From: Runella rosea
Lineage (GTDB): Bacteria > Bacteroidota > Bacteroidia > Cytophagales > Spirosomataceae
NCBI RefSeq assembly: GCF_003325355.1
Contig: NZ_CP030850.1
Coordinates: 4,643,501 to 4,707,500, forward strand
Reading direction: 5' to 3'
Length of the DNA stretch: 64,000 nt
Shown here: positions 38,958-39,973 of the stretch, in pieces
How positions within the stretch are numbered: the stretch's first letter is position 1
How the letters are laid out: each line of letters opens with the position of its first letter
Program-made: the position numbers and the translations under genes
The notes under the pieces: model-generated
The model's database searches: none
Told to the model about the DNA's origin: nothing
What the model saw: the letters and a program-made list of their open reading frames with translations, nothing else

Positions 38958-39395
38958 ATGAAATTCCCGCTTACAGCAAGCGAATTGACTAATGAGATTT
39001 ATATTTCAGTAGACAAATACCCTGAAATTGGAGATTTGCGAATTAGACAGTTGATGAAAATTTTATCAAACGTGCCTGATGAACTACTAATTGAGGGTCT
39101 AATTAAAGTTTTTGAGAATAATAATAGAAGGGAAACTGAAATTTTAGATCAAGAGTTTGCAGGGCAAATTTTGAAAGAAATTAAACCTAAAACAGATGTT
39201 GCCCTTGAAATTATTCTAAAAAAAATTTTAAGCAATTGGAATAAAAGTGTAGAAGAGGTTCCATTTTGGTTTAAAGAAAACTATGGTATAGAAATATGTA
39301 GACACACTTTAGAAAGCATTTCCAATGAAGCTGTATTAACTAAAGTTGAAAAAGAGAAATTAGAAACGATGAAGTGGTGGTTAGAAATAAAATAA
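38958..39395 (+). CDS. Hypothetical protein, 145 residues, AT-rich gene
   Basis: I do not recognise this gene. It encodes a soluble, largely helical, charged protein (SELTNEIYISVDKYPEIGDLR near the start, shown in part as EIYISVDKYPEIGDL; LKKILSNWNKSVEEVPFW in the middle; KEKLETMKWWLEIK at the end). No signal peptide or membrane segment. The DNA is clearly AT-richer than metZ and cysH, and the gene sits directly before a REPIN-like repeat and the DUF559 gene, so horizontal arrival is likely. The HEAT-like helical character and small size resemble immunity or accessory proteins, but nothing decides this. Confidence 0.6.
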   Translation: MKFPLTASELTNEIYISVDKYPEIGDLRIRQLMKILSNVPDELLIEGLIKVFENNNRRETEILDQEFAGQILKEIKPKTDVALEIILKKILSNWNKSVEEVPFWFKENYGIEICRHTLESISNEAVLTKVEKEKLETMKWWLEIK

Positions 39396-39454: not shown

Positions 39455-39545
39455 ACACACCCCGCGGCTAAAGCCGCACCCCTCTCAAGAGGGGATTGTC
39501 GCTGATTCCCCTCTTGAGAGGGGTGCCCGTAGGGCGGGGTGTGTG
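39455..39545. repeat. REPIN-like pair of inverted palindromic repeats
   Basis: Two REP-like units face each other around a 10-nt spacer (39496-39505). Each has CACACCCC, a small stem, ACCCCT, and the near-palindrome CCCCTCTTGAGAGGGG or its complement. Unit 1 (39455-39495) has stem GCGGC-TAAA-GCCGC; unit 2 (39506-39545) has GCCC-GTA-GGGC. The pair lies directly before the DUF559 gene. Sequence direct; the REPIN analogy is inference. Confidence 0.75.
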
Positions 39546-39557
39546 AAATTAGCAATT

Positions 39558-39944
39558 ATGGAACGTCGTCAAATCATTCCGTACAACCCTAAACTCAAAG
39601 AAATAGCCCGACAATTACGAAATAATAGTACTTTATCAGAAGTGTTATTGTGGCTTGAATTGAAGGGGAAAAAAATGAGAGGGTACGACTTTCACCGACA
39701 AAAACCGATTGACAATTATATCGTTGACTTTTTTTGTCATGAGCTGATGTTAGTAATTGAAATTGATGGAATCAGTCATACGTGGGAAGAAGTAGCCGTG
39801 AATGAGGAAATTCGTCAACGAAAAATAGAAAGCTTTGGAATACAATTTCTAAGATTTGACGACAAAGAGATAAAACAAAATATGAGTTTTGTCTTAAATA
39901 CAATTCACGATTGGATAGTTGAAAAAGAAAAAATCCCCTCTTGA
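39558..39944 (+). CDS. DUF559 (Vsr/restriction-endonuclease-like) protein
   Basis: A 128-residue protein of the DUF559 family, related to the Vsr/very-short-patch nuclease fold. Features: ARQLRNNSTLSEVLLWLELKG, KMRGYDFHRQKPIDNYIVDFF (catalytic Asp in NYIVDFF), LMLVIEIDGISH (acidic EIDG), and FGIQFLRFDDKEI. A PD-(D/E)xK active site is therefore plausible. The ATG at 39558 is chosen; a GTG at 39543 falls inside the repeat. The TGA stop lies within the downstream palindrome, so gene and repeats are fused into one unit. It interrupts the metZ-cysH block. Nuclease activity and any role in repeat spread are inferred. Confidence 0.85.
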   Translation: MERRQIIPYNPKLKEIARQLRNNSTLSEVLLWLELKGKKMRGYDFHRQKPIDNYIVDFFCHELMLVIEIDGISHTWEEVAVNEEIRQRKIESFGIQFLRFDDKEIKQNMSFVLNTIHDWIVEKEKIPS

Positions 39945-39973
39945 GAGGGGTGTCACGAAGTGACGGGGTGTGT
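39934..39973. repeat. Third REP-like unit, overlapping the DUF559 stop codon
   Basis: CCCCTCTTGAGAGGGG (39935-39950) is followed by stem GTCAC-GAA-GTGAC (39952-39964) and GGGGTGTGT. It has the same layout as the units at 39455-39545 but a different stem sequence that still pairs. Confidence 0.75.

Follow-up and report, generated by a model that had tools for sequence, protein, structure and literature searches.

Bacteria commonly carry REP repeats, which the literature consulted here links to enzymes of one type, the HUH-type tyrosine transposases (RAYT, TIRYT). What, then, is a gene for a small nuclease of another kind doing among REP-like units in Runella rosea? A first-pass annotation of the 64,000-nt stretch of the R. 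rosea genome analysed here (the window) had seen the gene bracketed by an inverted pair of REP-like units and a third unit containing its stop codon, and had proposed a separate class of REP-handling enzyme. Among the open-access papers listed by our literature searches, none connects DUF559 with REPs in its title or the start of its abstract.

The nuclease gene lies among three REP units

Upstream of the gene is a 90-bp REPIN-like inverted pair of REP units (39455..39544, no strand assigned), recognized by its layout, inverted match and predicted fold, which reads ACACACCCC, a small hairpin, CCCCTCTCAAGAGGGG, a 13-nt spacer, CCCCTCTTGAGAGGGG, a small hairpin and GGGGTGTGT. The two units of this pair, which starts with ACACACCCC at 39455 and ends with GGGGTGTGT at 39544, are 100% mutually complementary over 20 nt, and as single-stranded DNA the stretch 39457-39545 is predicted to fold at -36.3 kcal/mol (z -9.1), a value equalled by 0 of 200 shuffles. 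Unit 2 (39505..39544, + strand) has its hairpin outside and its GGGGTGTGT tag facing the gene, as is seen 5' of many relatives. The gene itself (39558..39944, + strand) encodes 128 aa, and its stop codon TGA (39942-39944) sits within the core of unit 3 (39932..39973, + strand), which is in direct, not inverted, orientation relative to unit 2. The unit 3 core is absent from the two nearest relatives, L025 (96%) and L026 (87%). In the window, the core CCCCTCTTGAGAGGGG occupies three sites, 39479-39494 (- strand), 39508-39523 (+ strand) and 39935-39950 (+ strand), with no further site when up to 3 mismatches were allowed; its 6 strand-matches compare with a shuffle mean of 0.32 and a largest shuffle count of 2. 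The coordinates, the core sites and the end of the ORF thus confirm the arrangement first described.

A 145-aa ORF lies 5' of the unit in the ORF list (38958..39395, + strand). It gave no match in Pfam up to E 1 or in NCBIfam up to E 0.1, and we excluded it from the unit because it is absent upstream of the unit in L026. The unit sits at what we take to be a metZ-cysH junction. An Rfam search gave one sub-threshold match that was not relevant, and the phage records searched gave no match. The nuclease is the sole DUF559 match in its own genome.

The protein is a DUF559 nuclease with a conserved active site

Pfam places the protein in DUF559 (PF04480) at 96.6 bits against a cut-off of 20.6, and the matches up to E 1 are DUF559, MTES_1575 and DUF2726, with Y1_Tnp absent. 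For the AlphaFold2 model (pLDDT 90.6, pTM 0.84), the nearest fold is 3hrl, a Neisseria endonuclease-like protein (E 4.4e-7), which is the sole match at or below 0.001 and is also retrieved by phmmer (6.5e-15). The second-nearest is the catalytic domain of the homing endonuclease I-Bth0305I (E 1.8e-3), followed by mitoribosomal proteins, modification-specific nucleases and R2 retrotransposon proteins, with Vsr at E 0.19. Across 49 aligned sequences E28, W32, R47, Q48, D57, F58, E68 and H74 are invariant and D70 is nearly so. The fold and the conserved D...ExD active site (D57, E68, D70) assign the protein to the PD-(D/E)XK superfamily, and because the active-site residues are invariant in these 49 sequences (D70 nearly so), we regard the active site as kept. 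The initial description of a Vsr-like nuclease from a family other than RAYT was therefore correct, given the DUF559 assignment by Pfam and the missing Y1 match.

DUF559 genes are frequently bracketed by inverted repeats

A search of genome contigs returned at least 80 loci with relatives, in Bacteroidota, Planctomycetota, Nitrospirota, Thermodesulfobacteriota, Cloacimonadota, Cyanobacteriota, Bacillota, Pseudomonadota and others. By eye and uncounted, many of these carry hairpin-linker-GGGGTGTGT 5' of the gene and its mirror 3'. For a sequence-blind test we scored the best inverted match between the 260 bp upstream and the 320 bp downstream of each gene. After five duplicates were dropped, 2 of 115 loci were without enough flank; among the remaining 113 DUF559 loci, strong flanking inverted repeats (score of at least 15) were present at 70 and 43 scored under 15. 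In three sets that overlap these 113 loci, 46/68, 9/11 and 13/20 loci beat all 60 of their dinucleotide shuffles, and scores of at least 15 were reached at 39/68, 8/11 and 12/20 loci versus 0/58, 0/9 and 0/20 for outer flanks taken ~1 kb farther out (0/87 in total). Two loci within this test, L054 and L055, fail because the downstream core is missing. Among 47 window ORFs of at least 100 aa, the one that reached 15 was the nuclease gene itself (16.5), and 2 of 39 control ORFs in fetched loci did so.

The 70 bracketed loci comprise 36 with tags inward, 7 with tags outward and 27 unclassified. Bracketing is thus frequent and not universal, and the orientation of the units varies. More distant DUF559 genes bear long repeats of their own, and at one locus (L041) a repeat pair lies on either side. 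Bracketing scores for plasmid loci, 6 of 37 records, were 32.5 (Sphingomonas), 55 (Deinococcus), 45 (Pseudanabaena), 17 (Picosynechococcus), 14 (Azospirillum) and 9.5 (Shinella). We also noted an array (G112:C3:135505-136790, L032) in which two partial DUF559 matches, 333 bp apart, come after a full one, and each match has a REP unit after it.

Nuclease and repeat co-occur across genomes

As a genome-wide pattern we used hairpin-linker-GGGGTG. Of the 150 genomes searched in the family, 26 contained it, as did 115 of the 395 sampled across the phylum and 43 of 50 picked for carrying the gene; in these 50 it occupied up to 187 and 158 places per genome, and a reversed control pattern gave 5 matches in total. 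The pattern is general across genomes, while R. rosea itself has few copies, 9 places spread over three loci.

With DUF559 presence set at a threshold of 1e-22, 63 of the 395 phylum genomes carry both nuclease and repeat, 26 DUF559 only, 52 the repeat only and 254 neither, giving an odds ratio of 11.8 (Fisher p 3.9e-21, with genomes that are not independent). The tested pattern is absent from 26 of the 89 DUF559 genomes, and the repeat is present in 33 of 37 genomes that hold a close relative of the nuclease (E of at most 1e-35). By family, p was 0.004 (f17), 0.014 (f18), 0.09 (f24) and 0.11 (f7), so that 2 of 4 large families fall below 0.05. Twenty genomes had at least 4 places and no close DUF559 match; PF04480 was present in 11 of them, 4 of these matches being weak as the genome's best (E 6e-9 to 2e-5), and absent in 9. 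The possibility that the repeats are rare or unlinked to DUF559 in relatives is contradicted by this linkage, which holds in the phylum and extends to other phyla.

Repeat type follows the nuclease lineage

Different DUF559 paralogues carry clearly different repeat types in 2 of 3 genomes examined (G162 and G176, not G151). In G162, a Pontibacter, 5 of 6 DUF559 matches are flanked by repeats of three types: L098 and L368 share one, L369 has another, and L370 and L371 have a third with tags outward; the weak sixth match (L372) shows none. Flank scores in this genome are 19-40.5 within a type and at most 13 between types and, by eye, the types are also dispersed in the genome. A further frequent repeat type of G162 (AACCCACCCCTACCCCTCC..., L336-L355) was seen to flank none of the six matches. 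In G176 six genes have five types, and the pair that shares a type is 72% identical. In G151 the flanks of L065, L116, L119, L380 and L381 match one another, and low scores were obtained for L383 and L384, which makes this genome less clear.

Across the 70 loci, repeat similarity correlates with protein identity (rho 0.311, 0/999 permutations). The correlation is present among pairs from different phyla (rho 0.348, 0/999, permuted inside phyla; 1540 pairs of 66 loci, namely the 70 scoring at least 15 less those with no phylum or more than two stops). Own flanks were the single best match at 32 of 70 loci, since close relatives have types in common. A form of the repeat with an extra small hairpin requires 4 changes on the nuclease tree versus at least 8 in 500 shuffles; this count used 59 of 99 tree rows, leaving out those that showed neither form or both. 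The window row was labelled manually, and the tree, built on 123 columns, resolves poorly (38 of 96 inner branches open). The notion of a single repeat core gives way to a grammar of hairpin, linker and G-run tag that varies with the nuclease lineage.

Unit edges, dispersed pairs and in-frame insertions

Two pairs, chosen among the matches listed, have sharp edges. One consists of L061 and L075, which come from two MAGs (93% identity over 464 bp), the other of L104 and L105, which occupy two places in Hyunsoonleella flava T58 (81% identity over 459 bp); both alignments end at the outer repeat edges. Since the shared sequence takes in the repeats and goes no farther than their outer edges, gene and repeats travel together. 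By contrast, L103 and L104, from two species, align over 3361 bp. Among the matches listed, other close pairs (e.g., L063/L066, L056/L058 and L093/L098) are alike far past the repeats on one or both sides, which is expected of copies at one common site and gives no edges. Internal stops within the matched stretch occur in 10 of 113 copies.

Three attempts (window locus, two dispersed pairs and E. coli ycjD) yielded no clean nucleotide-level empty site. The metZ-cysH junctions of the same genus are too diverged: G095 has a short empty junction and G031 a possible scar, and neither gives exact edges. The sites of the two dispersed pairs also have diverged flanks in 12 same-genus genomes. Just before cysH in L166, at the junction corresponding to that of the window unit, we observed CACACCCCACAAGTGTGT, possibly a deletion scar.

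REPIN-type inverted dispersed pairs are present in the window, G095, G103 and G000. In G162, 3 of 20 loci hold two cores by pattern, and further loci have, by eye, a second unit of a different type. We set aside the G031 pairs as proof of gene-free spread: by eye, 4 of 5 lie inside a larger repeated element of ~200 bp, and because of this they may have been carried along. That element (AAGTACTG...CATACTT, with a REP pair inside) has four copies in G031 and one in R. rosea (L268-L270, L272, L275). Another dispersed palindrome, GACTTGGAAAGTTT...AAACTTTCCAAGTC, was seen at L276 856-888 and at many Runella places (query 718-750).

In eight long ORFs, selected among the matches with long frames, DUF559 is in frame with other domains: IleRS, MnmE, MetH, two methylases, CoA-transferase, an HMGL-like protein and the HsdR N-terminus (L034, L049, L096, L062, L365, L045, L048 and L032). 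In these predicted ORFs, repeat DNA is part of the reading frame. The MnmE insert comprises a repeat pair, the nuclease and another repeat pair, flanked by parts matching 5-365 and 345-454 of E. coli MnmE; the IleRS insert is flanked by parts matching 202-485 and 525-777 of E. coli IleRS. In both, the entire insert, repeats included, is extra relative to the E. coli protein. In the two methylases the units lie ~50-75 residues ahead of the DPxxGSGHF motif, which we take to be motif I.

E. coli ycjD

At its 3' end the DUF559 gene ycjD of E. coli carries two REP-like units in inverted orientation (L356 2217-2241 and 2396-2420), for which Box C is, we presume, a candidate identity. Of 5426 E. coli genomes, 5375 contain matches to a 51-nt query from this 3' end, with a median of 18 places per genome. 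The flank score of ycjD is 8.0, so it is not bracketed by the inverted-repeat test. Two strains without ycjD (L357, L358) gave no clean empty site because they carry a different operon at that place. YcjD has been assigned to PD-(D/E)XK in the account given in PMC1189080.

Discussion

We put at about two chances in three the reading that the window copy is one of many widespread REP-bracketed mobile units whose nuclease acts on its cognate repeats. A single-gene DUF559 nuclease between REP units of its own type would be the autonomous form, and scattered gene-free units of the same types the non-autonomous form. The hairpin-plus-G-run unit might extrude as a single-strand hairpin or a cruciform; the PD-(D/E)XK nuclease would then recognize its cognate unit and nick or cut at the unit edge, and repair or strand capture could spread either the short REPIN-like pair or the whole REP-gene-REP unit, which may sometimes land in frame within host genes. 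PD-(D/E)XK enzymes cut DNA, and we know of none that joins strands. In this scheme the binding, the cleavage and the nuclease-driven spread of the repeats are the parts that we infer.

The main rival is a homing-type selfish gene, in which the nuclease would cut gene-less REP sites and the gene would spread by repair, the REP pairs being targets made by another agent. The I-Bth0305I catalytic domain as next-nearest fold after 3hrl, the placement of the gene between repeats, and the units inside conserved genes, including two methylases near DPxxGSGHF, are all in keeping with homing. However, identity in the two sharp-edged pairs includes the repeats and halts at their outer edges, and the IleRS and MnmE inserts are extra to the E. 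coli proteins with their repeats included; we therefore consider homing unlikely.

That RAYT/IS200-type Y1 enzymes move the repeats, with DUF559 as a passenger, has in its favor that 31 of the 35 repeat-positive genomes examined (R. rosea and 34 of the 43 positives among those picked for the gene) match Y1_Tnp, and that flanking inverted repeats occur at 2 of 5 Y1 loci (L330 and L334; scores 22.5 and 32.5, without the core pattern). We judge it very improbable: 4 of the 35 genomes, possibly incomplete assemblies, lack Y1_Tnp; all three R. rosea Y1 genes lie more than 100 kb from its repeats; the core pattern was found at none of 5 Y1 loci (10 were fetched, 5 being too short); and repeat type tracks the DUF559 lineage. 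A shade more remote still is a Vsr-like repair enzyme whose neighboring REP units serve as terminators or mRNA caps and involve no mobility, an idea favored by the mismatch repair role proposed for the Caulobacter DUF559 protein VsrA in the account of PMC12907096. It leaves unexplained the repeat types tied to paralogues, the sharp unit edges and the in-frame insertions. The ORFs next to the window gene, moreover, resemble what we take to be sulphur-metabolism genes and not a methylase.

On the mobile-unit reading, DUF559 would be another nuclease family, unrelated to the HUH enzymes, that has repeats of its own, and hence a candidate enzyme for the REP classes that PMC3733652 reports to be without a transposase. 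The proposal of a separate class of REP-handling enzyme, distinct from RAYT, is supported by the linkage inside the phylum and in other phyla and by the absent Y1 match. Whether DUF559 units further constitute a separate class of transposable element is to us an evenly balanced question. In such an element one PD-(D/E)XK nuclease, bracketed by REP hairpins particular to its lineage, would in many bacterial phyla mobilize both its own gene and gene-free REPIN-like pairs, and it could insert in frame into essential genes such as ileS; such a class, if real, would account for many REP families without a RAYT. With matched repeats to hand, a role for DUF559 becomes testable, and REP spread becomes open to direct assay with nuclease-repeat pairs from a single genome.

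Several known systems invite comparison. VsrA and YcjD belong to DUF559 like the window nuclease; they differ in being regarded, in the accounts of PMC12907096 and PMC1189080, as repair proteins or putative nucleases, and ycjD lacks two-sided bracketing in the inverted-repeat test. The CGTC REPs of Bacteroidetes and other phyla are, as PMC3733652 presents them, not associated with transposase genes, and their tag and CCA tail are unlike the repeats of DUF559 units; PMC12306157 makes no mention of an endonuclease or transposase. I-Bth0305I is similar in predicted fold and in its mobile-gene logic. We know of no REP brackets around this Vsr-like homing endonuclease. Rickettsia palindromic elements are palindromic repeats that lie in frame inside coding genes, whereas an in-frame DUF559 insert brings a nuclease gene with it.

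The closest parallel is the REPtron, described in PMC3733652 as a RAYT (TnpA-REP) with GTAG REPs or REPINs and repeat-specific enzymes. Like the DUF559 unit, it combines a small nuclease gene between palindromic repeats, dispersed inverted pairs and enzymes specific for their repeats. The REPtron uses an HUH/Y1 enzyme and a GTAG tag, whereas the DUF559 unit has a PD-(D/E)XK enzyme and a G-run tag (GGGGTGTGT and variants). Membership of the window unit in the RAYT/REPtron group was rejected on both counts: Y1_Tnp is missing from the Pfam matches up to E 1, and the REP ends are GGGGTGTGT, not GTAG. The GTAG that does occur in unit 2 is a hairpin loop, and reads GAAG in L025 and L026. Because of the layout, the matched repeats, the sharp edges and the kept active site, we view the DUF559 unit as probably a REPtron-like mobile unit with a different enzyme.
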